Shown piece after piece: positions 9,301 through 32,973 of a stretch of DNA of 64,000 nt. Numbering within the stretch: position 1 is the stretch's first letter; each line of letters opens with the position of its first letter. The notes under the pieces are model-generated. The model saw nothing but the letters and a program-made list of their open reading frames with translations, did not search any database and was not told the DNA's origin. Location of the stretch: contig NW_026516676.1 in NCBI RefSeq assembly GCF_025766255.1, positions 186,001-250,000 on the forward strand. The letters are read 5' to 3'. The position numbers were made by a program, and so were the translations under genes. This stretch comes from Zychaea mexicana. Taxonomy: Eukaryota; Mucoromycota; Mucoromycetes; Mucorales; Lichtheimiaceae.

Positions 9301-9546
9301 GCATTTTCAGAAATGGAAGTCGTATCTTTAGAAACCAAGTCGCTTGCTTAGAAAATTATGTCGTTCTTGGCACGAGAAAAATATAAAGAGAGAGAGAGAG
9401 AGTTTATATATGAAGATGGGCATGGAAGTGTAGTTGATGGGAATGGTGGTTCTGCCCATGGACTACATTGTTGATCAGAATGAGTTTATTGTTGAAACTA
9501 TTGCCACTCACACTGATAATTTTATAAAGTACAACATCTGGTGGGT
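6377..9546. other. Gene-poor region with microsatellites
   Basis: No gene was recognised. The start is probably MUB1 promoter or 5' UTR with a (GT)n run near 6460-6481, poly-purine sequence near 6540-6600 and a (CAC)n stretch near 6657-6675. An (AAC)n run lies near 6960-6983 and an (AG)n run near 9388-9403. A 92-codon minus-strand ATG frame at 8307-8029 (begins MWLSSIYINSTNSLN) and frames at 9008-9386 have no recognisable domain and may be chance. Confidence 0.5.
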
Positions 9547-9551
9547 GTTCT

Positions 9552-9884
9552 TGTAACAGTGTCGACCGAGATACTTACAATCGGGAACGTGAATGGGTAG
9601 ACAGTGTGGATCAATGAATAAGGTGAGACTCGGATATATCAAACGATTAAACGATGGGGATTCATATAACTCAGGATCCCGTCTTTATATATACGTCGAG
9701 TACTAGGGGGCTAGCTATCGTCTAAGTATTGATCTACATCATAACTTCTATCTAGACAATCCACGCCTATTACTTCATAATCAACCATGCGGTTGACCGC
9801 AAGTCATCCTATCGTCTGAATCATGCGTTGTCGATCGTCAACCATGCAGGTTGGATATCGTCGTAACGGTATGCACCGTTACAG
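9552..9884. mobile_element. Solo LTR of a retrotransposon with 5-bp target duplication
   Basis: The 333-bp element begins TGTAAC and ends GTTACA, the TG...CA inverted ends of an LTR. It is bounded on both sides by the same 5 bp, GTTCT (9547-9551 and 9885-9889), as expected for an integrase-made target duplication. A TATA-like TTTATATATA lies inside, near 9685-9695. There is no adjacent gag-pol, so it is a solo LTR left by LTR-LTR recombination. Ty1/copia or Ty3/gypsy origin cannot be decided. Confidence 0.82.
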
Positions 9885-9899
9885 TTCTCGTACTTGCCA

Positions 9900-11000
9900 A
9901 TGTTAAAAAAGTCGAGAGACGAAGACATCTTTATGAAAGAGACAAAACCAAAAAAAGATTACGTTCGCTATACAGTTCAGGATAAGGCCAGATTTTTCGA
10001 TTTAAAGATCGAAAAGTATATGAGTACATCGACTGCAGCGAAGCAGTTGGGTATACACATTCGAACAACGCAAAGATTGGTTCAACAGTATAGTATGTGC
10101 CCTGACAACATCTTTGACAGTTTAACAGAGTAGGTCGGAGGTGTATTCTAACCAAAGAGCATAGAAGATCTATTGTCAATTCCTCTGCTGCTGTTGTTGA
10201 AGTGACCGAACAATTGTTGAAACGGTTTCATGGTCACAAAGTTTCACGCAGCACTGTTTATAACTTTATGAAAAAAGAATGCAATCTTTCGCTGAAAAAA
10301 GCAGATTTCCATTTCATTGAAAGAAACAGTCAAGCAAAGATTGGAGAACGGTACAAATGGGTTTGTAGATGGGAAAATACAGATATGAACTTCCTGATAA
10401 ACTGTGTGTTTCTTGGAGAGTCAGCGTTTGACGTAAACATGAAGCAATTCTCGTGCATCTTTCAATAAGGTACTCGTGCTATTGTTAGCACACCTACTAC
10501 GAGAGCAAACACAACGTCTATATATTGGGCGCTATTTGTGCTGAAGGCTTGATAATAGCTGGTGTATAGAAACCAAGACCTGCTAAGAAGAGAAAAACTA
10601 ATGGCTATAGAATTTGGGGATTGTAACAGGCCACTACATTAGTTTTTTAGAGAATGACTCCCGATGAAATGGACAAGCTTTCATATATGAAAGGTCACTT
10701 CATAGTCATGGATAATGCACCCCCTTCACATGCATGAAAACAGAAAAAAGTATCATGAGTATCGAGGTTATAATGTGTGTATCTTCTATATACTCTCCTG
10801 AGCTTAACCCTATAGAACAATTTTGAGCAGTAGCAAAGAGTAAGGTTAAACGTCACAGGTTTTTGCACGAAGATACGTTGTCAAAAAAGAATCACAGAGG
10901 CCTGTAACAACAGGATGGAGAAAAGTCATTTCAGAGGCTTCGTTGTGCATTTTTACAAGTGCTGGGTTAAATGTCGAAATGAAGAATACATGCGATACCC
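9900..11000 (+). pseudogene. Degenerate Tc1/mariner-type (DDE_3) transposase, left copy
   Basis: Reading frames on the plus strand, broken by stops and frameshifts, line up as one transposase. First comes a helix-turn-helix-like part (STAAKQLGIHIRTTQRLVQQ near 10020-10090). Then come LLKRFHGHKVSRSTVYNFM and a first-Asp region in which FLGESAF stands where FLDESAF would be expected (near 10410). Next are HFIVMDNAPPSH (second Asp, near 10700) and YSPELNPIEQ (near 10795-10825). At least five stops interrupt it, so it is dead. It starts 16 bp after the solo LTR's right end, which suggests the LTR landed in its 5' region. Its 3' part, from about 10768, is shared with the right arm of the palindrome. 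Confidence 0.8.
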
Positions 11001-11109
11001 TTCAATGACTTCAAATCCAATAGAATCCATTTAATAACCTTCAATGACTTCGAAAATATAAAATCTGGAGCGTATGTTATCTCATGTTCGGAAAAGAGAA
11101 GGCGTTCCA

Positions 11110-11901
11110 TGCAACGCTCCAAAAAATCAACTATTTTATTTCATTGACCAACTTGAACATATAAAGTAATAATAAGAACATCCCAAACAGTTATACAGTG
11201 ACGTTCATAGTGAGCTATTCTCAAACTTGCAGTGTGACCCGATTTAAGCTCGAGTATCGCTAAAGACTATGCCTTACAAGTTCTTAATCTACGGATTGAT
11301 GCTCAAAATACACGGATCCTTGTAATCAAATACGAACTACACTAGAAATTTTGATCGCGAGGGTTTTTGGAGTGCCACCATATTCAAATATATGTGGCAC
11401 GTAGCGCAATGACTCACTCGTTTCTTTTGAAAACTCAGGTCATCATTGACACGATATTGTGTCCCACAGATATCGTCCCTTATTACATTAAAGACTTCAC
11501 ACTATAATTAATGTCTTCATGGTTCAGGCATGAATGTTGGTGAACTCATCGATGTGAGGTACTTGAACCCAAGTCAGCTTATGAGACACTTTACGTTGTG
11601 AATCAATGCGATATAGAATAAATCTAAACTCGGATAACCACATAGACTACAAGCGCTGACACTCCTGCTATAGCAACTCAGTATAAAAATATTTATAATG
11701 CAATCAATTCACAACCTACAACCTGGTCATATCTAGAAAGTTACAAATTTGATTTTTTCACTTTTTCTTATTTTATCTGAACAATTAAGCTCGGATTCTT
11801 CACACGAAATGAATTGATGGCAGCAGTATGTGGAGATATATATGAATGGATGCATTTATTCAAAGCGCAGGGCGCAGAAGCGGTGGCAATTTTTGGTTGA
11901 A
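11110..11901. other. Non-coding outer part of left arm
   Basis: About 790 bp lie between the transposon 3' end and the stop codon of the nuclease-like gene. No ORF or RNA was recognised. Scattered substitutions against the right-arm copy (for example near 11244, 11544 and 11736) are denser here than in the inner arm. Confidence 0.5.
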
Positions 11902-12951
11902 TCAATCAAAGAATAAATGGAGGGATGAGTGGGGCGCCGTTTTTCTTGCCACGAAGAAGCGGCACGGACAGGTTGACACAAACGCCAGAAGGTGGGTCAT
12001 CAATGTGCGCATATTTTTCAAGGACACAAATGTTGCTAGCTCTTCTAAAAACCGGGGAAATGTAAGCTGCGCAACTTCTTGCATCACATTGATTCCATCG
12101 TGGCGGAGGCGCGTCAGAAAAAAAGTGATATGAAAACCATGCACCTGGAAGGTCAGAGCGGCTTCCAATGCATTGGTATCAATGGTATCCCTTGCTAGAG
12201 TTGCCAAACGCATAAGATCGTGGCATAGCGCGTGGTTATCGATGGTGGGACGTGCAACTTTGACCTCTCCATATCCAAGACTGGGCCCAAAGTCGCGCTG
12301 CCGTAGCTTGGAAATTGTGGCGTCAGGGCGGATCTTGTCATTTTCATCAGACATGACGTTGGACCAGCGAAGGAGCACTTTTCTGTCAGGATCAGAGAAT
12401 AGCGATGCCAAGATGGGATCAAAGTACTTGGTGAAAAGCTCACATTCTCCAATAGTTTGCTTGTTTTTAATGGCAACGAGCGGCAAGCGGCGCATCCTAT
12501 AAAAATTGTTCAGTTTTGGCACAGGCTTTCACGAACTACTAATCGATAATGACTTTACGCTACTGAGATGCCAATCGTATATGACGCAGCTGATAGCGCT
12601 GTTCATATAGACAAAATTCGGCATCTTTCATTTTAAGCTTAAGCAAAGCCTTTTCACCAAGCTTCTCCGGTTCAAACGCGTTTTCCAGCCTTTCAATTGC
12701 GGTTCTAAGACGCTTAATGGCTTCAAAACCATAAGCAATGATAGAATCTGCTTCTTTCTATTCACAAATATCAGCTTAAATGTAGAATTATTTAAAGCGA
12801 TAGACATCAAAATCGCTCCTACCTCCAGCATGGGCACCAAAGATCGTCCAAGGGGGCACATGTTTTTTCCGAGTACCAGAAGCTCGATATCTGCATCCAC
12901 ATTGCCGATGATCCGAGCCAATTTCACGCATACATCGTCGCTGATATCCAT
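11902..12951 (-). CDS. PD-(D/E)XK nuclease-like protein, left-arm copy
   Basis: A 305-residue protein of unknown function. By mirror with the right copy it has three exons joined by 65- and 67-nt introns that keep frame. The N-terminal exons encode MDISDDVCVKLARIIG and a charged coiled-coil-like region (about residues 44-107). The last exon carries RPDATISKL followed about 15 residues later by GYGEVKVA; PD...ExK is the active-site pattern of PD-(D/E)XK nucleases. From memory, similar multicopy proteins with RPD...GYGE-K occur in Mucorales, but I cannot name the family. Transcription runs outward from the palindrome centre. The frame is intact. It differs from the right copy by about six residues, all in the last 120 (for example MRLATLARD against MRLAALAKD). 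The nuclease role is inference. Confidence 0.6.
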
Positions 12952-13914
12952 CACGCGTAGAATCCAACTTCATTTCGAGCCGCTGTTATAATTGTGTCTA
13001 TTAGAATTGAGTTGAGCAGGTTTTGACAGTTACCGTTAGTATAAAAGTGCAGATGCAAACTCGTAATAGTAAGAAAATAAAGTCGCGCTTTTGCTCTCCC
13101 TGTGTTATTTTGCTACCGCTCCCCATTCTTAATGATCTTTACGATTTACAGATGCACTGTTATAATTACCTTGTCTCAAGATGAACGGCACACCACGTAG
13201 TTACAATGCTTTTTTTTTGTTCACTGACGAAACATATACTGCTGCACTTCTTTTTTCTCTCAAGTCCCTTTATTCTGTGCCTGCTTCCCTCCACTTTGGG
13301 GGGGGAATAAGTAACTTGCATTAAATATCGCTCGATATGGCGCGTTGTTTTCTTGCTTGTATTGATGCCGATTGATTGGAAAGATCCTTTCTTTTGCCAG
13401 ACATAAGCTATTGATTTGTGGATGGAAAAGAAAGACCGGTCAAAGGTTTCAAAGGGACTAGACAGTATCCACCATAAAGCACGGAAACATTATACTCGAA
13501 TGATCCAGTTCATGTAAACAACATCTGTAGAGCAATAAACGGCTATAACCCGAATGGGCTGACGTGATATGACGTCGTTTGTGAGCTCTTGAAGATTATT
13601 TACGGCTGATGATGCACTTGGAATGGTTGTCTTGTTACTAGTTATATTGGTGAATTATAATCCAAAAAAGGAAAAGTATCAGGAAAGAAGGGGATGGGGG
13701 ATGGGGGAGATAGCGGATAGTGTTATGCAAGTTGGTTAATATCTTATCAGCAGGATGACTGGGCGTGTATTAGATTGGGATAGCGCAAAGGTCAGGCCAA
13801 TGATCAAAGGGTCTCTGTACAGGGTTCGGGTCGATGTTGTTTATATTGAACAATAAATTGTTTGTTTGGGTTTTGTTTGGAGTAAACATGTGCTGAACGC
13901 CGCAGCCAGCGTCT
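12952..13914. other. Non-coding part of left arm upstream of the nuclease-like gene
   Basis: This is presumably the promoter side of the minus-strand nuclease-like gene. A poly-G run lies near 13300. No ORF or RNA gene was recognised. Right-arm counterpart: about 24489-25453. Confidence 0.45.
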
Positions 13915-14520
13915 TCATGGGATCAGTGAGACATTGTAGAAAGTCTCGGCCATTGTGGTGGCGTGTGTAACGAAAATAAAAACCGCTCTCTTATACGAGT
14001 ATATGCCCACGGCAATTATCGGTTGCCGATCCTCCAAGCCCGCAATGATGGATGTGGGCAGCTTAAAATAAATTGTCAAAGCCAGATTATAGAGCAGCAT
14101 GGCTGTTTTCAGCATAGTATGCGCGTCATCCTAGAGCTACTATTATCCAAACAGGCTGCTTCTTCAGGTTGATACTGTTGTTCGGTTTGCTCGTTTTATC
14201 AACCGCCTCCCTCAGCAGTAGCGATTCAAAGTCAATCAGACGTGGTCGGCGTATGTGTGGGTGATGTATGATGTATGTGGGAAAAAAACAAAAATGAGGA
14301 TGGTCGGCTCGTACGAGAGTCAAGCATGCATAATCTTAGCCTTGCTTTTGAGCACATGAAAGTTGTGCCGACCTTGTTCTCGGTTAATCAAGGGGTTGAA
14401 AGGGGCGTGGCAAGCGAAACATATGATACCATTAAACCGGTTCTCTCGGCCTAGAACAGCTTGCCTTAAGCGCCGTTGTTGCTGGTGTGCATGCCCTCCC
14501 AACAAATTTCTTTCCTTTCC
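13915..14520 (-). other. Unassigned ORF cluster in left arm
   Basis: Three short minus-strand frames follow each other and are preserved in the right arm. One has a CxxCH motif (NGIICFACHAPFNPL near 14400-14430). The second is a 65-codon frame ending KKQPVWIIVALG. The third (14115-13915) begins MLKTAMLLYNLALTIYFKLP and looks membrane-like; in the right arm it carries four extra residues from a 12-bp indel. They could be exons of one gene, but no consistent splicing model was found and no family recognised. Confidence 0.3.
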
Positions 14521-14706
14521 ATCATTTTCGCGAACTGAACTACGCGAACACAGAAAGTAAAAGAAAAAATGAAAATGAAAAAGATGAAAAACGGTACCAA
14601 AGTGTGATAAAGCGCGTTGTGATCGTGTTACTGTCGTCTGTCATTGTTCTGCGCTTTGTTGAGCACGGAGCTTATCTTTGCCAGTTTTGGTTTTTTGTAC
14701 GCAGAC

Positions 14707-14729
14707 CCTGGAACCCGTAGGGGTCCAGG
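14707..14729. promoter_or_regulatory. Imperfect hairpin/operator-like palindrome upstream of a TATA box
   Basis: CCTGGAACCC and GGGGTCCAGG are inverted around GTA with one mismatch. The site ends 31 bp before the TATA box at 14761. It is duplicated in the right arm. Confidence 0.35.
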
Positions 14730-14760
14730 CCAGCGTTCTTTTTGGAAATGAACTTTTGCC

Positions 14761-14770
14761 TATAAAAAGA
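14761..14770 (+). promoter_or_regulatory. TATA box of the minisatellite transcription unit (left arm)
   Basis: TATAAAAAGA is followed by a pyrimidine-rich initiator-like stretch. A start codon (14827-14829) lies about 65 bp downstream and is followed immediately by GTAAGT. The mirrored box in the right arm reads leftwards from 23630. Confidence 0.5.
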
Positions 14771-14919
14771 CACCCATTTTCCGCAGCGTGTTGCTTCCTC
14801 GCTTTTTCACTTTTTCACGATCACGTATGGTAAGTCCCTTTCTTTTTTCTGTGGATATGTGGGGAGGGAGTGGGGGCTAACGCGGGTTTTGTAGGTCGTG
14901 GGTGAGTGAGTGTGTGGGT

Positions 14920-16913
14920 GGGTGGGTGGTGCTTGTTTTGTAGGCATGGGCGACGTAGGCGTAAGGTAAGTGATTGAAGGTAAGTGTGTGGGTGGGTGGT
15001 GCTTGTTTTGTAGGCATGGGCGACGAAGGCGTAAGGTAAGTGATTGAAGGTAAGTGTGTGGGTGTGTGGGTGGGTGGGTGGTGCTTGTTTTGTAGGCATG
15101 GGCGACGAAGGCGTAAGGTAGGTGGTTGAAGGTAAGTGTGTGGGTGTGTGGGTAGGTGGTGGTGCTTGTTTTGTAGGCATGGGCGACGAAGGCGTAAGGT
15201 AGGTGGTTGAAGGTAAGTGTGTGGGTGTGTGGGTAGGTGGTGGTGCTTGTTTTGTAGGCATGGGCGACGAAGGCGTAAGGTAGGTGGTTGAAGGTAAGTG
15301 TGTGGGTGTGTGGGTAGGTGGTGGTGCTTGTTTTGTAGGCATGGGCGACGAAGGCGTAAGGTAGGTGGTTGAAGGTAAGTGTGTGGGTGTGTGGGTAGGT
15401 GGTGGTGCTTGTTTTGTAGGCATGGGCGACGAAGGCGTAAGGTAGGTGGTTGAAGGTAAGTGTGTGGGTGTGTGGGTAGGTGGTGGTGCTTGTTTTGTAG
15501 GCATGGGCGACGAAGGCGTAAGGTAGGTGGTTGAAGGTAAGTGTGTGGGTGTGTGGGTAGGTGGTGGTGCTTGTTTTGTAGGCATGGGCGACGTAGGCGT
15601 AAGGTAAGTGATTGAAGGTAAGTGTGTGGGTGTGTGGGTAGGTGGTGGTGCTTGTTTTGTAGGCATGGGCGACGAAGGCGTAAGGTAAGTGATTGAAGGT
15701 AAGTGAGTGAGTGTGTGGGTGGGTGGGTGGTGCTTGTTTTGTAGGCATGGGCGACGAAGGCGTAAGGTAGGTGATTGAAGGTAAGTGAGTGAGTGTGTGG
15801 GTGGGTGGGTGGTGCTTGTTTTGTAGGCATGGGCGACGAAGGCGTAAGGTAAGTGATTGAAGGTAAGTGTGTGGGTGTGTGTGTGGGTGGGTGGTGCTTG
15901 TTTTGTAGGCATGGGCGACGAAGGCGTAAGGTAGGTGGTTGAAGGTAAGTGTGTGGGTGTGTGGGTAGGTGGTGGTGCTTGTTTTGTAGGCATGGGCGAC
16001 GAAGGCGTAAGGTAGGTGGTTGAAGGTAAGTGAGTGAGTGTGTGGGTAGGTGGTGGTGCTTGTTTTGTAGGCATGGGCGACGAAGGCGTAAGGTAGGTAT
16101 TTTAAGGTAAGTGTGTGGGTGTGTGGGTAGGTGGTGGTGCTTGTTTTGTAGGCACGGGCGACGAAGGCGTAAGGTAGGTATTTTAAGGTAAGTGTGTGGG
16201 TGTGTGGGTAGGTGGTGGTGCTTGTTTTGTAGGCATGGGCGACGAAGGCGTAAGGTAGGTGGTTGAAGGTAAGTGTGTGGGTGTGTGGGTAGGTGGTGGT
16301 GCTTGTTTTGTAGGCATGGGCGACGAAGGCGTAAGGTAAGTGATTGAAGGTAAGTGTGTGGGTGGGTGGTGCTTGTTTTGTAGGCATGGGCGACGAAGGC
16401 GTAAGGTAAGTGATTGAAGGTAAGTGTGTGGGTGTGTGGGTGGGTGGGTGGTGCTTGTTTTGTAGGCATGGGCGACGAAGGCGTAAGGTAGGTGGTTGAA
16501 GGTAAGTGTGTGGGTGTGTGGGTAGGTGGTGGTGCTTGTTTTGTAGGCATGGGCGACGAAGGCGTAAGGTAGGTGGTTGAAGGTAAGTGAGTGAGTGTGT
16601 GGGTAGGTGGTGGTGCTTGTTTTGTAGGCACGGGCGACGAAGGCGTAAGGTAGGTATTTTAAGGTAAGTGTGTGGGTGTGTGGGTGGGTGGGTGGTGCTT
16701 GTTTTGTAGGCATGGGCGACGTAGGCGTAAGGTAGGTGGTTGAAGGTAAGTGTGTGGGTGTGTGGGTAGGTGGTGGTGCTTGTTTTGTAGGCATGGGCGA
16801 CGAAGGCGTAAGGTAGGTGGTTGAAGGTAAGTGAGTGAGTGTGTGGGTAGGTGGTGGTGCTTGTTTTGTAGGCACGGGCGACGAAGGCGTAAGGTAGGTA
16901 TTTTAAGGTAAGT
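14920..16913. repeat. Minisatellite, ~81-bp unit, 25 copies (left arm)
   Basis: The unit core is TGCTTGTTTTGTAGGCATGG, then GCGACGAAGGCGTAAGGTA, then a variable G/T-rich linker. Copies of the core recur every 81 bp (for example 15243 to 15324), with shorter units of about 70-77 bp at the edges. Variants include GACGTAGGCG, CACGGGCG and TATTTTAAGG. The C-rich (minus) strand has almost no stop codons in any frame, which creates overlapping Pro/Thr/His-rich ORFs of 230-584 codons; because 81 is divisible by 3, each shows a 27-residue repeat. These ORFs are treated as artefacts. The G-rich strand has runs such as GTGGGTGGGTGGGTGG. Confidence 0.95.
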
Positions 16914-16914
16914 G

Positions 16915-16992
16915 GGAGCAGATGTCGATGGACCTTCTCGTGGTTGCTCCTGTCAGTACCTGCTTAAGAGCAGGGAAGCTAAGACATCGACA
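16915..16992 (+). other. Pseudoknot-capable RNA tail element
   Basis: GGAGCA (16915-16920) pairs with TGCTCC (16945-16950). TGTCGATG (16923-16930) pairs with CATCGACA (16985-16992). These stems cross, giving a pseudoknot topology. A third hairpin, CCTGCT/AGCAGG with a TAAG loop, lies at 16959-16974. The element sits between the repeat array and AATAAA. The right-arm copy is 22363-22440. Confidence 0.4.
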
Positions 16993-17515
16993 CCCTATTA
17001 TTGATTAGTAGTATCATGTATCAAATAAAGAATGGTTTTTTTCTCTTCCCGTTCGTTGAACTTGCTTGTGCGTGATTTTATACAACTCCCTTATGGAGTC
17101 CACATTAAGCCGCCCCTTCCCCCAATTTTTTTCAAAGCCAGCAAAGTGGCCTCCACATTAACAAGGGCGGCCCACAACAACAGCTGAGGGACTTTGTGCT
17201 TTTTTTTAAACAGCAATGGCATTCAATTATTAATGGCGGCAGGCAGATGGAAAAAGGACAGTAACATAAAAAGTAAGCTTTTATTATGTGGTGTGTTAAA
17301 AAGAACAGCAGCGTTGAAAAGGAGGGAAAAAAGAGTGAGTTTCTTATAACCGCGATTTCTTTTGGCTTTTGAATCTTTATTAGATTAATGAAGATGGCAG
17401 TAAAGAAAAAGTCAATGGCAAACTCGGAAATAGTATACACGTTGAAGACAGGCTTTTATTGAAAGATTAATGAAGGTAACGGTAAGAGCTTGCTTCTTTT
17501 TAAAGGGAGGGAAAG

Positions 17516-17728
17516 ATGGCGGATCTTTTTGACTTTGAATGGTTTTGTAATTTGACACACAGCATTTTGAAGAGGGATCGTCAACAATCGTCGACGAATC
17601 TATATGCTCGCCTTCACTACACGTCAACGAAAAGAAGAAGAAATGTACAACACACGTTGACGGAAACCAGAAACATTACAAACGAACAAGTAACGCTGCT
17701 TTTTCAATACTCGCCGCAACTCATATGA
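17516..17728 (+). CDS. Hypothetical 70-residue protein (left arm copy)
   Basis: An intact ATG frame begins MADLFDFEWFCNLTHSILKR and ends FQYSPQLI; it is identical in the right arm (21839-21627). It contains a basic patch (STKRRRN). No family was recognised. It lies downstream of the polyA signal of the minisatellite unit and points towards the palindrome centre. It may be real or a chance ORF kept only because the arms are identical. Confidence 0.25.
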   Translation: MADLFDFEWFCNLTHSILKRDRQQSSTNLYARLHYTSTKRRRNVQHTLTETRNITNEQVTLLFQYSPQLI

Positions 17729-18319
17729 CGATTTGCTTCTAACTGCCATCCCAAGATTTTAAATCGTGCATCTTATCAAACGTTGCTGATGCTCGCCATT
17801 AAATGTACTCGACATCCATATGTAAAATAGGACCGGTAATCACGCACAACACAATACGAAAGCAGGGGAGACATATGTACAGCAGTATTACGTGTTTTTA
17901 CTTACGGCGGCCTATCCTTTTTCATGCATATATTTGATCTACTTACTGAACAACGGCAGTACACAACAATAATATTATGGCGGTTGCTTCTTACGGACGA
18001 GGAAAACGAGCAAGAAAGGGATGCCACAATGCGTTTTTAAAGGGAGTATATCTTTTCATTGCTGTAGAATAGTGGGATCAGTAAGATGAGCGGGTATACA
18101 GAAACCATGTTCCTTTTTTCTTCATTGATAATAAAAACCATACATTATATCGGATTTTTATCTATAGCCAATCTTTTGGGCGAGATGGATATTTATATCA
18201 AGTGATGAGCTGAAAGCAGGATACTTTTTTTAAGGATCAGAGGATAGAAATACGATATATATAGTTTGAACAATACAAAGACAGGCTAAGAAGGAAGAAG
18301 AAGTACTGGAAAAAGGGTG

Positions 18320-20996
18320 TTAATGGCGGCGATGTTGTGTTTGCAGGCGACGGTTTGTGGGGACAGTGCCGATGCTATCGAGGTTTTGTTGGATTGGAAT
18401 AAGCTGCTGTATGATATCACCTAGTGATTCATCATCAGCAGCACTAACAGTGACATCACTTAAATGGCGTTGCATCTGGACAAGCATTGCTTTAAGGCGC
18501 TGTGCATTTGTCTCGGTAGGTACAACAGATAGTGGTGATTGTGGACGGGGAGTGTGTGTTTGTGTGTGTTGGGTGGTGGATGTTATTGCGCTGGTGTTGG
18601 GCTCATCATCAAACATTGTTGCAGGTTTGGCAACTAGAACTTCAAGGTCGTTATGGTCGTAAAGCTCGAGCGCAAACATGTGCTTACAGGGAATATGGCG
18701 GCGCGCAAAAGCAGGGCAGGAACAGGCAGTGATATCATCATTAGTGACAGTAATCTAGAAAATGCTTACTTAGAATGATATATACAGTTGTACCCCGGTT
18801 TTTGCAACCGAGGGTTTTCCGATTTTTTTTGCACAAAGTGAGGATTTGCAAGTAACGGGGTAAACAATTCTGCTTCAAATAGACACTGGATAAGTCATCC
18901 TATATACACTAACCCATTGTTTATCTGTTAGAGATGATGTACGATACGTTCTGTGGGGATTTCACACAGCTCCAAATGTTACTACTTGCATATATAAGAC
19001 CGTTCTTTTATTGAAGCTGTCTAGTGCAGTAACCGTATCATTTTATTCCTCGATAATACGCAACAGATGCTTCTTTCAGTTGATATTGAAAAAATTGAAG
19101 CTGTTTTTACCCCGATAACGCGCAAATCGTATAAACTCATTTGCAAGTTGCAAATTTGCGAAACTACTAAGTTTTTTTGGATTTTTCAATAAAAAGTTGC
19201 AGATATACGAGGAATTGCAAATCCAGGGGTTGCAAAAACCGGGGTGCAACTGTATGCATATGTCTCTGTGCTATATATAATAATACCGTGTATTGTATTT
19301 CAAGGTTGGTGAATGAGCGAACTGTATAAAGATCATCATGCTTTTGGACCATTGCTTCGAGCTGCTCTTCGCTTAATGCTTCTGCTTTCTGCTCTGATGC
19401 ACGAAGCTCACGATCGACTGTGCCCAAACGTCCAATGCCTAATTCTTGCATGCGGATCCGTCGCCTCATTCTCTTTTCAACTGTGGTAGACAGTAGCGTT
19501 GCAAGAGCATCAATACGACGGTTTCGACGACGTTCTAGGAAGCGTGTCTTGAGCTGATTGTGCCAGCTTTCCACAAAGTTATTAGTCTTCATATCGACGT
19601 TGATATCCTGCTTGAAACAGTAGACCCATTCCTTGTACACTTCGTTCTGAATCCATTGCTGTTGAAAATACTGCAAGATTTGCTGTTGGCTCGCCCAGCG
19701 TTCAAGAAATACATTCACACTGTCGTAGTACTCCGCTTCGGTTTGTTTATACATTAGGCACGGAGGTCGCCAAAGATAGCCTTAATGGTGGTCTCCTTGT
19801 TTTGTTCATCATCTACAACAACTTTCTTGCGGATGTTGCTGCGCCAGGAACGCATGACGTGCCATGCACACAATCGGATTGCAGCAGTGTTCCATGTGTC
19901 CTTGATTGCCTTTTTCTCAGTGGCACTGCAATCGATCGTTACTTGTTGTGGGGTGACCCCGCGTTGCTTAAGGCCCATCAAACATTGGTATAGCGGCTCC
20001 GATGACTGATCGTTTGTTATGAGGTACGCCACAGGAAGACCACGCCCTGTTCCAGTGTGGCAGATTACGATGGTGTACATGATGGTATTAGGGTAGATGG
20101 TAACATCATGCGTAGCATCCAAACAGAAACCACTGGCTTTCAGCAAGTGGTGCTCTTGCCATGGTGACATAAAGCCGCAAGCAAAGGTCGAAGAGCAGGT
20201 TCCATCTGGGAGCAGTGTACCTTGACCGTAAACAAAAGTGTAATAGCTTTTGTTCTGCTCATGCTCGAGAAGCCAAAGACCGATAGACTCAAAGTCGTTG
20301 AATGCCTTTCTCGTTCTACCGACATTAACCGTGTAGTATACATTGTATACATCCTCGTATGTCACATAGCCGCCACGTCCACGTACGCCCTGTACCTTGT
20401 CATTCACGATTTGGACTACGCGCGCAACATCATCAACCTCGTCGAGCTTTTCTTGTATAAGCTTAGTGAGCCTTGCTGGTTTTGGCAGATGGCATAAGAC
20501 ACCAAGCGGATGGTTATGCTGATGGTAGAAGCGGAAAACTACCCACTCAGAATCATGGGTGTACTGCTTAACTTGAAACACTGCAGGGCACTGGACCTTT
20601 TTAGATTTGCTTTGTAAAGGTCTTCTTTTCTTGTCAATGTGATCTTCTCCTTGGCGCTCAGGATGGGGATTCTTGGTGCCCACACAATGACAATTGAAGC
20701 TGTGTGAAAAAATCACATAATGCCCGGTATGGTCTTTACGCTGGATTTCTGGGGCTGATATACATACTATCAGCATATCCCTTATAGCTCATATAAAACC
20801 TTACTGTAATAAACTTACTGCCATCTTCATTGAGAACGCGTCCGTTTTCAGACCATCCATTAGCGTAACGTTTTTCCTTGCTCAGCCAGCGTTCCCCCGT
20901 TTCCTCTGGATAGCGTGCAATAGCCTCTAAGTACGTGGCATGCAGCTCAACTTCTTCGCAGCGAACTGATTCGGAATTCAAAGGCAAACGAGACAT
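18320..20996 (-). CDS. Mutator-like (MULE) transposase with SWIM zinc finger, one frameshift
   Basis: DNA transposase of the MULE superfamily. Exon 1 is 20996-20819 (ATG at 20996), exon 2 is 20754-19288 and exon 3 is 18754-18320. Seen in order: an N-terminal Cys/His zinc-binding-like region (CPAVFQVKQY...HQHNHP), first Asp in FCLDATHDV (about 20118), second Asp in VTIDCS (about 19932) with the MULE CAWHVMRSW block, and Glu in NFVESWHNQLK (about 19570). A SWIM finger CSCPAFARRHIPCKHMF follows at about 18680-18725. One base appears to be missing near 19754, where GCCTAATG creates a stop and the next frame resumes with no residue lost. Intron 2 (532 nt) is inflated by a nested 468-bp MITE. Everything else is open, so the gene is recently inactivated or the base is a sequencing error. 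Confidence 0.85.
18785..19252. mobile_element. Pogo/Tc1-mariner-type MITE inside a MULE intron
   Basis: It has 24-bp terminal inverted repeats starting CAGTTG(T/C)ACCCCGG, differing at one base, flanked by TA on both sides (18783-18784 and 19253-19254), the target duplication of this superfamily. The interior has no coding frame. It lies wholly between the donor at 19286 and the acceptor at 18755, so the coding sequence is not broken by it. Confidence 0.85.
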
Positions 20997-21626
20997 GTTA
21001 ATTGCGAGATTTCGAAATGAAAAAAAAACTTGGTAATGAAGTCAACAAACTACTCCGTCCCTGTCTTCGTGTTAAAGTACTCAGCTACTTATTGTACCAC
21101 AACATCCATGTTCTCTAACACTTTGGTAAGAACGCCGTGTTTGATATCGCAAGCATATGTATCATTGCCTCAATAGACAAACATGCATAATAGCAATAGT
21201 ATACCAGTAATGTATGGTTTTTATTATCAATGAAGAAAAAAGGAACATGGTTTCTGTATACCCGCTCATCTTACTGATCCCACTATTCTACAGCAATGAA
21301 AAGATATACTCCCTTTAAAAACGCATTGTGGCATCCCTTTCTTGCTCGTTTTCCTCGTCCGTAAGAAGCAACCGCCATAATATTATTGTTGTGTACTGCC
21401 GTTGTTCAGTAAGTAGATCAAATATATGCATGAAAAAGGATAGGCCGCCGTAAGTAAAAACACGTAATACTGCTGTACATATGTCTCCCCTGCTTTCGTA
21501 TTGTGTTGTGCGTGATTACCGGTCCTATTTTACATATGGATGTCGAGTACATTTAATGGCGAGCATCAGCAACGTTTGATAAGATGCACGATTTAAAATC
21601 TTGGGATGGCAGTTAGAAGCAAATCG

Positions 21627-21839
21627 TCATATGAGTTGCGGCGAGTATTGAAAAAGCAGCGTTACTTGTTCGTTTGTAATGTTTCTGGTTTCCGTCAACG
21701 TGTGTTGTACATTTCTTCTTCTTTTCGTTGACGTGTAGTGAAGGCGAGCATATAGATTCGTCGACGATTGTTGACGATCCCTCTTCAAAATGCTGTGTGT
21801 CAAATTACAAAACCATTCAAAGTCAAAAAGATCCGCCAT
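21627..21839 (-). CDS. Hypothetical 70-residue protein (right arm copy)
   Basis: Identical in sequence to the left-arm frame at 17516-17728 and in mirror orientation, so both copies point towards the spacer. No function was recognised. Confidence 0.25.
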   Translation of the reverse strand: MADLFDFEWFCNLTHSILKRDRQQSSTNLYARLHYTSTKRRRNVQHTLTETRNITNEQVTLLFQYSPQLI

Positions 21840-22325
21840 CTTTCCCTCCCTTTAAAAAGAAGCAAGCTCTTACCGTTACCTTCATTAATCTTTCAATAAA
21901 AGCCTGTCTTCAACGTGTATACTATTTCCGAGTTTGCCATTGACTTTTTCTTTACTGCCATCTTCATTAATCTAATAAAGATTCAAAAGCCAAAAGAAAT
22001 CGCGGTTATAAGAAACTCACTCTTTTTTCCCTCCTTTTCAACGCTGCTGTTCTTTTTAACACACCACATAATAAAAGCTTACTTTTTATGTTACTGTCCT
22101 TTTTCCATCTGCCTGCCGCCATTAATAATTGAATGCCATTGCTGTTTAAAAAAAAGCACAAAGTCCCTCAGCTGTTGTTGTGGGCCGCCCTTGTTAATGT
22201 GGAGGCCACTTTGCTGGCTTTGAAAAAAATTGGGGGAAGGGGCGGCTTAATGTGGACTCCATAAGGGAGTTGTATAAAATCACGCACAAGCAAGTTCAAC
22301 GAACGGGAAGAGAAAAAAACCATTC

Positions 22326-23630
22326 TTTATTTGATACATGATACTACTAATCAATAATAGGGTGTCGATGTCTTAGCTTCCCTGCTCTTAAGCAGGTACT
22401 GACAGGAGCAACCACGAGAAGGTCCATCGACATCTGCTCCCACTTACCTTAAAATACCTACCTTACGCCTTCGTCGCCCGTGCCTACAAAACAAGCACCA
22501 CCACCTACCCACACACTCACTCACTTACCTTCAACCACCTACCTTACGCCTTCGTCGCCCATGCCTACAAAACAAGCACCACCACCTACCCACACACCCA
22601 CACACTTACCTTCAACCACCTACCTTACGCCTACGTCGCCCATGCCTACAAAACAAGCACCACCCACCCACCCACACACCCACACACTTACCTTAAAATA
22701 CCTACCTTACGCCTTCGTCGCCCGTGCCTACAAAACAAGCACCACCACCTACCCACACACTCACTCACTTACCTTCAACCACCTACCTTACGCCTTCGTC
22801 GCCCATGCCTACAAAACAAGCACCACCACCTACCCACACACCCACACACTTACCTTCAACCACCTACCTTACGCCTTCGTCGCCCATGCCTACAAAACAA
22901 GCACCACCCACCCACCCACACACCCACACACTTACCTTCAATCACTTACCTTACGCCTTCGTCGCCCATGCCTACAAAACAAGCACCACCCACCCACACA
23001 CTTACCTTCAATCACTTACCTTACGCCTTCGTCGCCCATGCCTACAAAACAAGCACCACCACCTACCCACACACCCACACACTTACCTTCAACCACCTAC
23101 CTTACGCCTTCGTCGCCCATGCCTACAAAACAAGCACCACCACCTACCCACACACCCACACACTTACCTTAAAATACCTACCTTACGCCTTCGTCGCCCG
23201 TGCCTACAAAACAAGCACCACCACCTACCCACACACCCACACACTTACCTTCAACCACCTACCTTACGCCTTCGTCGCCCATGCCTACAAAACAAGCACC
23301 ACCACCTACCCACACACCCACACACTTACCTTCAATCACTTACCTTACGCCTACGTCGCCCATGCCTACAAAACAAGCACCACCCACCCACCCACACACT
23401 CACTCACTTACCTTCAATCACTTACCTTACGCCTACGTCGCCCATGCCTACAAAACAAGCACCACCCACCCACCCACACACTCACTCACCCACGACCTAC
23501 AAAACCCGCGTTAGCCCCCACTCCCTCCCCACATATCCACAGAAAAAAGAAAGGGACTTACCATACGTGATCGTGAAAAAGTGAAAAAGCGAGGAAGCAA
23601 CACGCTGCGGAAAATGGGTGTCTTTTTATA
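22326..23630 (-). other. Putative spliced transcription unit built on a minisatellite (right arm)
   Basis: Mirror copy of the left-arm unit: TATA box at 23630, ATG at 23564-23562 followed by GTAAGT, 65-nt first intron, repeat array, structured tail (22440-22363) and AATAAA at 22331-22326. It is about 950 bp shorter than the left copy. It is transcribed towards the spacer if active. Confidence 0.4.
22441..23490. repeat. Minisatellite, ~81-bp unit, 13 copies (right arm)
   Basis: Same repeat family as the left array, inverted. The G-rich and splice-like strand is the minus strand here. Unit order at the inner end resembles the left array (including a CACGGGCG unit next to the tail), so the length change came from loss or gain of inner units. 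Confidence 0.95.
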
Positions 23631-23871
23631 GGCAAAAGTTCATTTCCAAAAAGAACGCTGGCCTGGACCCCTACGGGTTCCAGGGTCTGCGTACAAAAAA
23701 CCAAAACTGGCAAAGATAAGCTCCGTGCTCAACAAAGCGCAGAACAATGACAGACGACAGTAACACGATCACAACGCGCTTTATCACACTTTGGTACCGT
23801 TTTTCATCTTTTTCATTTTCATTTTTTCTTTTACTTTCTGTGTTCGCGTAGTTCAGTTCGCGAAAATGATG

Positions 23872-24488
23872 GAAAGGAAAGAAATTTGTTGGGAGGGCAT
23901 GCACACCAGCAACAACGGCGCTTAAGGCAAGCTGTTCTAGGCCGAGAGAACCGGTTTAATGGTATCATATGTTTCGCTTGCCACGCCCCTTTCAACCCCT
24001 TGATTAACCGAGAACAAGGTCGGCACAACTTTCATGTGCTCAAAAGCAAGGCTAAGATTATGCATGCTTGACTCTCGTACGAGCCGACCATCCTCATTTT
24101 TGTTTTTTTCCCACATACATCATACATCACCCACACATACGCCGACCACGTCTGATTGACTTTGAATCGCTACTGCTGAGGGAGGCGGTTGATAAAACGA
24201 GCAAACCGAACAACAGTATCAACCTGAAGAAGCAGCCTGTTTGGATAATAGTAGCTCTAGGATGACGCGCATACTATGCTGAAAACAGCCATGCTGCTCT
24301 ATAATCTGGCTTTGACAATTTATTTTAAGCTGCCCACATCCATCATTGCGGGCTTGGAGGATCGGCAACCGATAATTGCCGTGGGCATATACTCGTATAA
24401 GAGAGCGGTTTTTATTTTCGTTACACACGCCACGACAGTTGATACAACAATGGCCGAGACTTTCTACAATGTCTCACTGATCCCATGA
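23872..24488 (+). other. Unassigned ORF cluster in right arm
   Basis: Mirror of 13915-14520. It has frames at 23886-24071 (CxxCH motif), 24068-24265 and 24276-24488. The last has four residues (VDTT region) absent from the left copy. No family was recognised. Confidence 0.3.
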
Positions 24489-25453
24489 AGACGCTGGCTG
24501 CGGCGTTCAGCACATGTTTACTCCAAACAAAACCCAAACAAACAATTTATTGTTCAATATAAACAACATTGACCCGAACCCTGTACAGAGACCCTTTGAT
24601 CATTGGTCTGACCTTTGCGCTATCCCAATCTAATACACGCCCAGTCATCCTGCTGATAAGATATTAACCAACTTGCATAACACTATCCGCTATCTCCCCC
24701 ATCCCCCATCCCCTTCTTTCCTGATACTTTTCCTTTTTTGGATTATAATTCACCAATATAACTAGTAACAAGACAACCATTCCAAGTGCATCATCAGCCG
24801 TAAATAATCTTCAAGAGCTCACAAACGACGTCATATCACGTCAGCCCATTCGGGTTATAGCCGTTTATTGCTCTACAGATGTTGTTTACATGAACTGGAT
24901 CATTCGAGTATAATGTTTCCGTGCTTTATGGTGGATACTGTCTAGTCCCTTTGAAACCTTTGACCGGTCTTTCTTTTCCATCCACAAATCAATAGCTTAT
25001 GTCTGGCAAAAGAAAGGATCTTTCCAATCAATCGGCATCAATACAAGCAAGAAAACAACGCGCCATATCGAGCGATATTTAATGCAAGTTACTTATTCCC
25101 CCCCCCCAAAGTGGAGGGAAGCAGGCACAGAATAAAGGGACTTGAGAGAAAAAAGAAGTGCAGCAGTATATGTTTCGTCAGTGAACAAAAAAAAAGCATT
25201 GTAACTACGTGGTGTGCCGTTCATCTTGAGACAAGGTAATTATAACAGTGCATCTGTAAATCGTAAAGATCATTAAGAATGGGGAGCGGTAGCAAAATAA
25301 CACAGGGAGAGCAAAAGCGCGACTTTATTTTCTTACTATTACGAGTTTGCATCTGCACTTTTATACTAACGGTAACTGTCAAAACCTGCTCAACTCAATT
25401 CTAATAGACACAATTATAACAGCGGCTCGAAATGAAGTTGGATTCTACGCGTG

Positions 25454-26503
25454 ATGGATATCAGCGACGATGTATGCGTGAAATTGGCTCGGATCATCGG
25501 CAATGTGGATGCAGATATCGAGCTTCTGGTACTCGGAAAAAACATGTGCCCCCTTGGACGATCTTTGGTGCCCATGCTGGAGGTAGGAGCGATTTTGATG
25601 TCTATCGCTTTAAATAATTCTACATTTAAGCTGATATTTGTGAATAGAAAGAAGCAGATTCTATCATTGCTTATGGTTTTGAAGCCATTAAGCGTCTTAG
25701 AACCGCAATTGAAAGGCTGGAAAACGCGTTTGAACCGGAGAAGCTTGGTGAAAAGGCTTTGCTTAAGCTTAAAATGAAAGATGCCGAATTTTGTCTATAT
25801 GAACAGCGCTATCAGCTGCGTCATATACGATTGGCATCTCAGTAGCGTAAAGTCATTATCGATTAGTAGTTCGTGAAAGCCTGTGCCAAAACTGAACAAT
25901 TTTTATAGGATGCGCCGCTTGCCGCTCGTTGCCATTAAAAACAAGCAAACTATTGGAGAATGTGAGCTTTTCACCAAGTACTTTGATCCCATCTTGGCAT
26001 CGCTATTCTCTGATCCTGACAGAAAAGTGCTCCTTCGCTGGTCCAACGTCATGTCTGATGAAAATGACAAGATCCGCCCTGACGCCACAATTTCCAAGCT
26101 ACGGCAGCGCGACTTTGGGCCCAGTCTTGGATATGGAGAGGTCAAAGTTGCACGTCCCACCATCGATAACCACGTGCTATGCCACGATCTTATGCGTTTG
26201 GCAGCTCTAGCAAAGGATACCATTGATACCAATGCATTGGAAGCCGCTCTGACCTTCCAGGTGCATGGTTTTCATATCACTTTTTTTCTGACGCGCCTCC
26301 GCCACGATGGAATCTATGTGATGCAAGAAGTTGCGCAGCTTACATTTCCCCGGTTTTTAGAAGAGCTAGCAACATTTGTGTCCTTGAGAAATATGCGCAC
26401 ATTGATGACCCACCTTCTGGCGTTTGTGTCAACCTGTCCGTGCCGCTTCTTCGTGGCAAGAAAAACGGCGCCCCACTCATCTTTCCATTTATTCTTTGAT
26501 TGA
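25454..26503 (+). CDS. PD-(D/E)XK nuclease-like protein, right-arm copy
   Basis: Exon A 25454-25582, exon B 25648-25841 and exon C 25909-26503 total 918 nt, giving 305 residues with no internal stop. The start ATG is preceded by an in-frame TGA (in AAATGAAG), which fixes it. Introns of 65 and 67 nt have GTAGG and GTAGCG donors and GAATAG and TTTATAG acceptors, with ACTGAAC as a likely branch site in the second. Signature residues are RPDATISKL and GYGEVKVA. It is transcribed outward, mirror-image to the left copy. Both copies are intact, which argues for function or for recent duplication or homogenisation. Family name and activity are unproven. Confidence 0.6.
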
Positions 26504-27290
26504 TTCAACCATAAATTGCCACCGCTTCTGCGCCCTACGCTTTGAATAAATGCATCCATTCATATATATCTTCACATACTGCTGCCATCAATTCATTTCG
26601 TGTGAAGAATCCGAGCTTAATTGTTCAGATAAAATAAGAAAAAGTGAAAAAATCAAATTTGTAACTTTCTAGAAATGACCAGGTTGTAGGTTGTGAATTG
26701 ATTGCATTATAAATATTTTTATACTGAGTTGCTATAGCAGGAGTGTCAGCGCTTGTAGTCTATGTGGTTATCCGAGTTTAGATTTATTCTATATCGCATT
26801 GATTCACAACGTAAAGTGTCTCATAAGCTGACTTGGGTTCAAGTACCTCACATCGATGGGTTCACCAACATTCATGCCTGAACCATGAAGACATTAATTA
26901 TAGTGTGAAGTCTTTAATGTAATAAGGGACGATATCTGTGGGACACAATATCGTGTCAATGATGACCTGAGTTTTCAAAAGAAACGAGTGAGTCATTGCG
27001 CTACGTGCCACATATATTTGAATATGGTGGCACTCCAAAAACCCTCGCGATCAAAATTTCTAGTGTAGTTCGTATTTGATTACAAGGATCCGTGTATTTT
27101 GAGCATCAATCCGTAGATTAAGAACTTGTAAGGCATAGTCTTTAGCGATACTCGAGCTTGAATCGGGTCACACTGCAAGTTTGAGAATAGCTCACTATGA
27201 ACGTCACTGTATAACTGTTTGGGATGTTCTTATTATTACTTTATATGTTCAAGTTGGTCAATGAAATAAAATAGTTGATTTTTGGAGCGT
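26504..27290. other. Non-coding outer part of right arm
   Basis: Mirror of 11110-11901. It lies downstream of the nuclease-like gene and no gene was recognised. Confidence 0.5.
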
Positions 27291-28000
27291 TGCATGGAAC
27301 GCCTTCTCTTTTCCGAACATGAGATAACATACGCTCCAGATTTTATATTTTCGAAGTCATTGAAGGTTATTAAATGGATTCTATTGGATTTGAAGTCATT
27401 GAAGGGTATCGCATGTATTCTTTATTTCGACATTAAACCCAGCACTTGTAAAATGCACAACGAAGCCTCTGAAATGACTTTTCTCCATCCTGTTGTTACA
27501 GGCCTCTGTGATTCTTTTTTGACAACGTTTCTTCGTGCAAAAACCTGTGACGTTTAACCTTACTCTTTGCTACTGCTCAAAATTGTTCTATAGGGTTAAG
27601 CTCAGGAGAGTATATAGAAGATACACACATTTATAACCTTAATATTCAATATATGTCTCTATGTTTTCATGCGATTGAATGGGAGCAATATTCATGACTA
27701 CACAGTTATCTTTCGTTTGTCCATTTGATCGAGAGTCTTTTTCAAGAAACTTACATAATGGGCTGTCAGACGTAAAGTTTCGCCAAAGCAATGCTTGTTC
27801 ACAAGAGCTTGTATGATCCCTGCTAAAAACGGACGAAGTTAGTCGCTACGAGTAGAAAACATGATTATTTGGGAATAGCCAGCCCAAGTAGTATAGATCA
27901 ATTGTTATACACACTTTATTAGCTTTTCCTTTGAGCTGCCTATTGGCATCAGCTTTCTCTGGATCGCTTGCAAAAGCTTTGGCCGGTTATTTTGGATTTT
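27291..28000 (-). pseudogene. Degenerate DDE_3 transposase, second diverged copy (right)
   Basis: On the minus strand the frames give VSFLKKTLDQMDK (about 27720-27760) and VMNIAPIQSHEN, where the canonical second Asp is replaced by Asn. They then run into the 3' part shared with the left arm. Outside position 27640 it is only about two-thirds similar to the left copy, so it is a different copy of the same transposon family in inverted orientation. It is interrupted by stops. Confidence 0.7.
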
Positions 28001-29158
28001 TTTTGAGACAAATATAGAGCTCTATATAAGCTTTTTCATAGCGTTATGCAACGCGAAACTACATCCTAGGACATAGTTGGTCATACACCCGCTTTGAGAC
28101 AAGAATTATACAGACCTCTAGCCAACCAATTTTGTTTAAACGCAGAATACTGCGACCAAGAACAGATCTTTTTTTCATTTTCATTTTCTAGGCGACCCCC
28201 CTCTCCTCTTCTCACCAGAGTACAATAAAGATCGCATCTCCTTGTTTTGTTCAATAACTACATTAATGGATGCATATTGTAAATTTTCCGTCCCCAAACA
28301 ATAATAATAATGATGCTTAATGCAAAGAAATCGAAACGAGACAGCCAATCCATTATCATTGCGGTCTCGTGGGTATGATGAGTAGCAAGAGCAAGTCTAC
28401 GCGGATGAACAAGGGGGAAAACGCGATATTGCCAGAATAAAGCGACGGTGCTGTATGAAGGTATTGCAGCAACCGATAGTCGTCTATGTGCAGCGCCATA
28501 TTGGTCTCTGACGATGATGATTTGGAGCTATTTAGCGAGATGAACAACGAACATTTTATGTGTCAAATGTACTGTATGCGTGGCTACAAGGCCGTACACT
28601 TTGGTATAATGATCGCCGAAATGATACTGACTGTATGCACAATGAATGTATGTGCTTTCTTTCATTAAGAAAACAAAGTAAGAAGGATCGACGGGAAAAG
28701 AGCGCTTTGCAAGATAATTTTAAGGAGTGTCTAAAATCGATTCTGCTGGTGCCGCAATTGTACCTTTCGTTCTGTCAGTTGAGTGAGTGAGTGAGTTAGT
28801 GAGTGAGTGAGTGAGTGTGGAGAAAAGAGACATCCGGTTTGGAGTTGTTGGGTTAGAAGGGAGTGCCCACCTTTGATGAAGTGATTGATTTTGATTCAAC
28901 CACACCTAAAAAGCTTACCAACCAACCAACCAACCAACCAACCAACAGCCCCCTCCCCAATTTATACTCGCCTTTTCCCTTTTTTCCTCTTCTTTCTTTC
29001 TTCTTCTTCTTCTTCTTCTTCTTCACCACCTATTGCTCTCTCTGTTCTTTTCTTCAACTTAGGCTTTTGTACGTGAAAACCAGTAGACATAGTATCGAAA
29101 CTCATTGGTAGCAACTACAGCGCTTATACGAAAAACCCAGCAATATTAGCAACAGTCG
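28001..29158. other. Gene-poor region with simple repeats upstream of NHA1
   Basis: No gene was recognised. Simple repeats: (GAGT)n near 28782-28818, (CCAA)n near 28917-28946 and (TTC)n near 28996-29024. The last few hundred bases are presumably NHA1 promoter and 5' UTR. A frame near 28486-28668 (contains SDDDDLELFSEMNNEHFM) is unassigned. Confidence 0.5.
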
Positions 29159-32100: not shown

Positions 32101-32540
32101 GAAGAAGTTGGCTGGAGAGAAACCGCAACGAAGATCAAGACGATAGTCAACATCGCGGTAGCAGCAACAAGTCCAAATTCCACATATTCCGTGGAAAACA
32201 TCATCAAAAGAAAGCGCCACGGTCAGAAAAAGAGGCGGAGAACAATCTTGACCCGCGTGCTGAAGAAGCCTTCCACACGCCACTAAATCCTCGTATTGAA
32301 GTATGGGAGGAGGAGGACAACATTATCATCGAGGATACCCAAGACGATACGCCCCAAATCGTCATCAACAAGAGCGAGCAGCCCAACTGGCGCGAAATCG
32401 TCAAGCGCACGGTCGATGAAAAAAACCATGCAATCCGTAGCGAGTCAGCTACCGCCCGTTCTGACAAGTCGTTTTCATCTTCATCGACGGCGACCAGCGC
32501 AACTTCTCGCAACAACAATAGTAATAACAGCCACTCATAA
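29159..32540 (+). CDS. NHA1: Plasma-membrane Na+(K+)/H+ antiporter, Nha1/Sod2 type
   Basis: Exports Na+ or K+ in exchange for protons. Ten exons: 29159-29288, 29478-29599, 29671-29699, 29773-29887, 29981-30025, 30316-30398, 30477-30665, 30747-30795, 30936-31115 and 31206-32540. Their sum is 2,277 nt, giving 758 residues in one frame. Family motifs: hydrophobic N-terminus, GIIAGPLVANGINPYGW, VCPTDPV and SGANDGLGFPFLFLAIF (conserved Asp residues of the ion site), and a membrane domain of multiple helices ending near WFGPMGVGAVF. The long hydrophilic cytosolic tail is rich in His (a run of six), Ser, Gln and acidic residues, as in yeast Nha1. The intron at 29888 uses a GC donor (GCAAGT). The intron at 29289-29477 contains a (CCAA)n run. 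Confidence 0.93.
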
Positions 32541-32973
32541 ACATACAATATAGCATGCCTTCACGCCCACCTCTTCTCCCTCTATTGCAACTTTTTCTGC
32601 TTTTCATAGTGTTTAATTGCTAAGTGATATGGCAGCCCCCGGAAAAAGAAACTCACCTACGCATACACATTACACAGCTTATAATCACACCCTTTAATGT
32701 ACAGAAGTGCTGGTAAAAAAAGGAAGGAATTTACTCTCTTTCATATTTTTACAATACGACCGTATCAATAGTATGCAGTACAAGGCTATCGTTAAGAAAT
32801 TTCCAAAAAAGCAAGGGATGTTGAGCAATTTATTATTTCAAAGCATATGTTTTGTGTATGTGCAAACCTATTTAGTGACGAGATATGAGAGGGGTTTGTT
32901 TGTGGAAGTATAGCGAATTGTGAGAAAGACAGAAGAGGGGAGATGGAGATGGATATGTTATATGTACATTTCG
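32541..32973. other. Convergent 3' region between NHA1 and NUP96
   Basis: AT-rich 3' untranslated sequence between two convergent genes. No gene was recognised. Confidence 0.5.

Follow-up and report, generated by a model that had tools for sequence, protein, structure and literature searches.

A 16.9-kb palindrome in Zychaea mexicana, probably an inverted duplication seeded by the terminal repeats of a MULE transposon

How does a near-perfect palindrome of 16.9 kb arise in a fungal genome, and why does a transposon stand at its centre? Long palindromes are usually regarded either as accidents that do not last or as a peculiarity of sex chromosomes. The palindrome considered here lies in a 64,000-nucleotide stretch of Zychaea mexicana (contig NW_026516676.1, positions 186,001 to 250,000; hereafter the window, whose coordinates we use), on a contig of 594 kb, and was compared with the whole genome of 50.3 Mb in 305 contigs. 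BLAST of the window against itself recovered an inverted repeat in which 10768-18147 (left arm, + strand) is matched by 21208-27640 (right arm, - strand), the inner boundaries being 18147/21208 and the outer edge of near-identity about 10768/27640, so that self-BLAST and boundary comparison bear out the coordinates of a preliminary description to within 1 bp. An inverted repeat of such length and identity cannot be due to chance. The element at its centre is a Mutator-like element (MULE), and we think it probable that the palindrome is a transposon-seeded inverted duplication, formed by fold-back at the terminal inverted repeats (TIRs) of the MULE, reverse copying of the left flank and closure at a Tc1 repeat.

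The unique spacer between the arms (18148-21207) is the interior of the MULE, as seen from boundary comparison and from a genome query with the 3,061-bp spacer, which found three other copies (C122, C288 and C32, 96-99% identical). A query with the inner arm set the end of the element at 17083, reached by the C32 copy at both ends and by the C288 and C122 copies at one end each. Because these copies stop there, the MULE comprises 17083-22272 (5.2 kb, transposase on the - strand) with TIRs of 1,065 bp, the left at 17083-18147 (+ strand, terminus CAACTCCCTTATGGAGTCC, the same end as in the C288, C32 and C122 copies) and the right at 21208-22272 (- strand), identical to the left with 0 differences over 1,233 aligned inner bp. 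The TIRs are common to independent copies and the transposase is of MULE type, with FAR1 (PF03101) and MULE (PF10551) domains above the Pfam cut-off and a piece of a SWIM zinc finger. Its main frame is 19754-20788 on the - strand, with further pieces at 20736-21041, 19167-19781 and 18320-18754, also on the - strand; a TA-flanked, 473-bp insertion resembling a miniature inverted-repeat transposable element (MITE) at 18782-19255, missing from all three other copies, splits the transposase region. The preliminary description had placed a single MULE gene in the spacer; the transposase is indeed there, but it is not a single unit, and the MULE extends past the spacer, its TIRs being the inner arms.

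We favour fold-back seeding by this element because the arms of the palindrome stop, on the inside, at the point where the MULE TIRs do. The flanks point the same way. MULEs generate a target duplication of 9 bp on insertion, and none is present at the window MULE, where gattttata on the left faces tataaaatc on the right, an exact mirror image. Two other copies have both ends readable for this comparison: the C32 copy lies between caccaggtg and cactaggtg, an unmirrored direct repeat with 8 of 9 bases alike, and the C288 copy between two unrelated flanks that show no 9-bp duplication. Since mirrored flanks replace the target duplication, the outer arms should be later than the arrival of the MULE. 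A duplication of odd length such as 9 bp can never be its own reverse complement; given the mirrored flanks and the missing 9-bp duplication, simple insertion of the MULE at the centre of a ready-made palindrome is therefore excluded. The window MULE is a rearranged MULE, and in place of the earlier picture of an element merely lying within the palindrome the evidence indicates a palindrome grown around it.

Directly outside the MULE on both sides is a dispersed repeat, E, whose left copy (11622-17082) is mirrored by the right copy (22273-26783; self-BLAST and arm alignment), other genomic copies extending beyond these borders. The repeat includes an 81-bp minisatellite and a gene for a 208-residue protein. 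Twenty E copies elsewhere were fetched among 40 matches listed, and all 20 run past the point at which the window copies meet the MULE, with three main continuations; the view that E is a TIR transposon whose end is the MULE border was ruled out on this count. Given the mirrored flanks and E copies that run past the junction, the right side of the MULE looks to have been replaced by an inverted copy of the left side. E and MULE meet at the same point, within one base, at five junctions, two in the window, two in C288 and one in C305. The three outside the window would suit an ectopic crossover in which two E-MULE copies paired the wrong way round through their TIRs and their halves were joined head to head, as would the stretch 11622-13066, where the distance of the left arm from the C290 copy (16 differences) is not much greater than that from the right arm (11 in 1,445 bases). 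Yet the junction between Tc1 and E at 11622 is common to both arms, whereas the C2, C20, C288 and C290 copies continue otherwise there, and over the same stretch the arms are closer to each other than to any of these four copies, from which the left arm differs at 16-29 positions and the right at 21-32 (gaps uncounted). Because of the shared junction and this mutual closeness, the margin over C290 being modest, we take both arms to derive from one local arrangement. The partners of a crossover would need to be sister copies, which comes close to the fold-back model, and we regard such a crossover as improbable. As a separate observation, C288:32619-47324 carries a direct duplication of MULE TIR and E, the second copy of which begins 6 bp inside the MULE interior, at the inner edge of the TIR.

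Outward, the left arm passes into a Tc1-like sequence (9241-11363, + strand) with the terminus TACAGTGCTTCC at 9241, and the palindrome holds only 10768-11363 of it. Beyond about 10768/27640 near-identity ends, and for some 130 bp the right side consists of a different, decayed Tc1 fragment (27641-27767, - strand) about 75% identical to the left Tc1. The transposase of the left Tc1 is broken by stops and frameshifts; because it is a stop-ridden pseudogene and the divergence between the arms is just 0.31%, the duplication should be younger than the decay of the Tc1. Near the outer edge of the palindrome no right Tc1 terminus was found at up to 2 mismatches, only the left one. The suggestion that the whole 16.9-kb unit might be mobile is not supported, as it has no second whole copy among the matches listed, no paired termini (one Tc1 terminus, at 9241) and no target duplication at the MULE ends.

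The locus thus carries what fold-back would leave behind, namely a pre-existing inverted repeat as inner arms (the MULE TIRs), flanks of this seed that are the mirror of one side, and a second junction at a repeat (the switch from Tc1 to Tc1 fragment at about 27640). In the sequence of events that we propose, a MULE with 1,065-bp TIRs would first have arrived beside E; the junctions are observed and the exact origin is our reconstruction. Breakage or fork stalling next to the MULE may then have exposed both TIRs on one strand, allowing them to anneal, and synthesis would have copied the left flank (E, a gene for a 208-residue protein and part of the Tc1, 5-6 kb) in reverse onto the right side, as the mirrored flanks suggest. 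The new strand would have joined the right side where copied Tc1 meets the decayed Tc1 of about 75% identity, a junction that is visible and whose mechanism is our reading of it. Last, the right minisatellite would have shortened, the inner arms being identical through recency or arm-to-arm conversion; here the difference is observed and its cause is surmised. We infer the break, the annealing and the direction of copying, and the identity of the inner 3 kb may reflect recency, conversion or polishing of the assembly.

Comparison of the arms bears on their age and on which is the copy. Counted inward from 10775 and including 811 co-linear bp of minisatellite array, they show 19 substitutions over 6,169 aligned bp (0.31%), with one extra mismatch in a smaller array block outside this count, and three 1-bp, one 2-bp and one 12-bp indels, the last at 13953. 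The 81-bp minisatellite has about 24 units on the left (14902-16914) and 13 (13.0) on the right (22441-23489), the shorter array being obtainable from the longer by deletion of blocks of units; the 97% BLAST identity of the outer arms is a register effect of this array. The alignment reproduces the substitutions, 12-bp indel and repeat-number difference first described, and the recent origin then proposed gains support from the low divergence, although it is not extreme throughout, given the 11 arm differences over 11622-13066 against 16 between left arm and C290. Active homogenisation, also proposed, is possible: the innermost 2,988 aligned bp are free of substitutions, all 19 falling farther out, a pattern that 0 of 20,000 randomised placements gave. 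Outgroup information assigns 14 substitutions, seven and a probable two to the right arm and four to the left, with one ambiguous. The left arm is probably the template and the right, with the shorter array, the copy. Ten of the 19 cluster in the roughly 400 bp of 11833-12230 (right-arm changes six clear and two probable, left-arm changes two), possibly a mutation cluster.

These differences also bear on the possibility of an assembly artefact, in which a chimeric or mis-joined long read made the mirror image. The genome is in 305 contigs, was available to us without read data, and has several E copies near contig ends, all of which would accommodate such an error; but the arms differ in substitutions, indels and array length, the spacer is an asymmetric 3 kb, and the 594-kb contig continues on both sides. 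In addition, the right-flank stretches 27600-29200 and 30000-33500 each occur once at full length in the genome (the left side beyond 9300 lay outside this uniqueness test), with partial matches only, of 69-81%, on C26. Misassembly is argued against here from anatomy only, and we give it very little weight.

The Tc1 at the outer edge belongs to a wider set, and its relatives raise a further reading of the palindrome. C14:62390-68345 has TIRs of 1,860 bp (99.8% identical) and C240:742355-748891 TIRs of 1,900 bp (99.6%), and in both each TIR bears an inward-reading transposase gene, with both frames open in C14 and one shortened in C240. The C14 transposase matches PF13358 (DDE_3) at E=1e-28 and is of DD34E type, with 34 residues between D and E; TA flanks both elements, which at two bases is weak evidence alone. 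The part of Tc1 shared between elements is 73-84% identical, likeness to C14 ending at about the end of the transposase and that between the window and C240 reaching a little further, to 11363. That each arm might be a complete Tc1, as in a composite transposon of the Tn10 type, was rejected: there was no convincing 3' TIR in the four arms tested, where the highest score, 21 in C14 with a shuffled maximum of 18, is a possible trace, and C240, C13 and C147 did not exceed the shuffled maximum. In the interior of another long-TIR Tc1, C147:24055-26625, we observed a 258-residue frame with a different, D...EYQLK-like motif and no Pfam match.

Might the palindrome be a giant element of this kind, its TIRs grown inward over cargo by arm-to-arm conversion, with the MULE incidental in the middle? 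The genome does hold Tc1-like elements whose TIRs, of 1,860, 1,900 and 8,001 bp, terminate in TACAG-type sequences. In the window a terminus of this type stands at 9241, Tc1 and then the 208-residue gene follow in the order seen at C240:742355-748891, and 9 of 12 neighbouring Tc1 pairs less than 20 kb apart face inward (two outward, one direct; hand tally among the matches listed). Near-identity, however, ends at 10768, 1.5 kb before the terminus, and gives way to the 75% Tc1 fragment and no right terminus, and inward growth does not predict an inner boundary at the end of the MULE TIR. We consider this reading unlikely.

The 208-residue protein is encoded at 11902-12528 (- strand) in the left arm and 25877-26503 (+ strand) in the right (reading-frame list and arm comparison), and has homologues in many Mucorales. 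Alignment of 30 of the 46 proteins found shows P168, D169 and E188 to be nearly invariant and K190 invariant, in a motif RPDA...GxGEVK that reads RPDATI-GYGEVK in the left-arm copy. PD...(D/E)XK is the defining motif of the nucleases of that name, and by motif the protein may be a PD-(D/E)XK nuclease; Pfam, PDB-sequence and Foldseek searches returned no significant family, and VIA ranked several unrelated folds level with nuclease-like ones. Relatives of the gene lie inside the C240 element and, by inspection of frames, the C14 element. Since a homologue of the gene (G6F70_006362) and one of the transposase (G6F70_006361) bear consecutive locus tags in Rhizopus microsporus, the pairing of the two probably extends beyond Zychaea. 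Also in the window, the left Tc1 carries a 330-bp MITE-like insertion at 9552-9884; this and the one at 18782-19255 have dozens of further genomic matches.

The window palindrome does not stand alone, and the process proposed for it seems to have been at work around further transposable elements of Z. mexicana; the further palindromes were reached via the window's own repeats and are not an unbiased sample, and near-identity is not universal among such pairs, C291 being at 92.5%. The closest parallel is a 9-kb palindrome of E repeats at C240:274786-283793, with arms 99.4% identical by BLAST and 2 substitutions in 2,927 aligned array-free columns. Its central element is 2.29 kb long, has TIRs of about 630 bp and has 37 further long matches among those listed. 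Again the innermost point of the arms coincides, to within a few bases, with the inner end of the TIRs, and the flanks directly outside the element are mirrored. In C147, arms of at least 3,054 bp (99.87%) extend beyond a long-TIR Tc1 by at least 1.18 kb. A 16.7-kb palindrome at C13:429557-446244 has arms of 8,001 bp (99.875%), a 689-bp spacer, Tc1-type termini at its ends and a multi-copy 1-kb element at its centre.

Several points weigh against the fold-back reading. The inner boundary of the C13 palindrome lies at one end of its central element, not at a TIR inner end. At the window, the small number of polarised differences does not establish which arm was copied from the other. Break-induced copying of a chromosome arm over a long distance is made less likely by the right flank, which has no full-length duplicate elsewhere, and the way in which closure took place is only loosely constrained. 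The expected starting state, in which a MULE lies in uninterrupted E between 9-bp duplicates, was absent from the loci fetched, and the C288 MULE has E on one side, unrelated DNA on the other and no duplication. The evidence comes from a single assembly of one strain.

One genome nonetheless holds at least four natural palindromes, each about 8.7 kb or longer and each with a transposable element in its middle, in two of which the borders are exact enough for a mechanism to be read from them, TIR inside and mirrored flank outside. If this is confirmed, large inverted duplications would have natural seeds in transposon TIRs, and scanning the whole genome could reveal how frequent these duplications are, which element families seed them and how fast their arms converge; similar palindromes around other mobile elements in the same genome make the origin testable. 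A more speculative reading, to which we give less than even odds, is that Zychaea carries an unreported kind of Tc1 with a transposase gene in each of its kilobase TIRs and, in at least two cases, a possible PD-(D/E)XK nuclease gene in its interior; this and other TIR elements would repeatedly make palindromes of their surroundings, possibly via cutting by transposase or cargo nuclease next to long inverted repeats, conversion keeping the arms alike.

In the open-licence literature, searched by titles and the starts of abstracts, we found among the papers listed no Tc1 with a transposase gene in each kilobase TIR, which does not show that none exists, nor several palindromes centred on transposons in a single fungal genome; Zychaea mexicana with transposon returned 0 papers. 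Nearest to the Zychaea Tc1s among described relatives found is Tc1-MP1, the Mucorales reference (PMC9977792), which has a DD34E transposase of similar length (434 residues) in related Mucorales hosts. It is 1,688 bp long with 141-bp TIRs and one transposase gene, whereas in the long-TIR Tc1s of Zychaea a transposase gene sits in every kilobase TIR and a cargo gene lies between them. KolobokP (PMC9587614) is likewise composite-like, with transposase and nuclease, but its long terminal repeats are direct, its transposase is internal and its nuclease is of the His-Me finger type.

For the palindrome itself, those of sex chromosomes (PMC6790999, PMC7023750) are comparable in their large, near-identical, gene-bearing arms, which are kept alike by gene conversion; the Zychaea palindrome differs in being transposon-centred, and conversion there is a possibility only. 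TIR elements are enriched at the borders of inverted DNA in Atlantic cod (PMC12368964), although in that case the product is large chromosomal inversions by ectopic recombination and not duplications centred on one element. The inverted duplications of E. coli that are centred on interrupted palindromes (PMC3315005) share the existing palindrome at the centre, but are bacterial, with no transposon mentioned at the start of the abstract. Closest in process is fold-back in budding yeast, where inverted repeats near a break anneal and are extended into an inverted duplication, widely spaced repeats work in single-stranded DNA, and secondary joins occur at dispersed repeats (PMC10622511, PMC10164571, PMC6103520). 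The Zychaea case differs in being natural, with transposon TIRs as the repeats, and any hairpin-capped or dicentric intermediate would be hypothetical there. The fold-back process is already known; its proposed instances in Zychaea and the Tc1 architecture are unreported in the literature searched.

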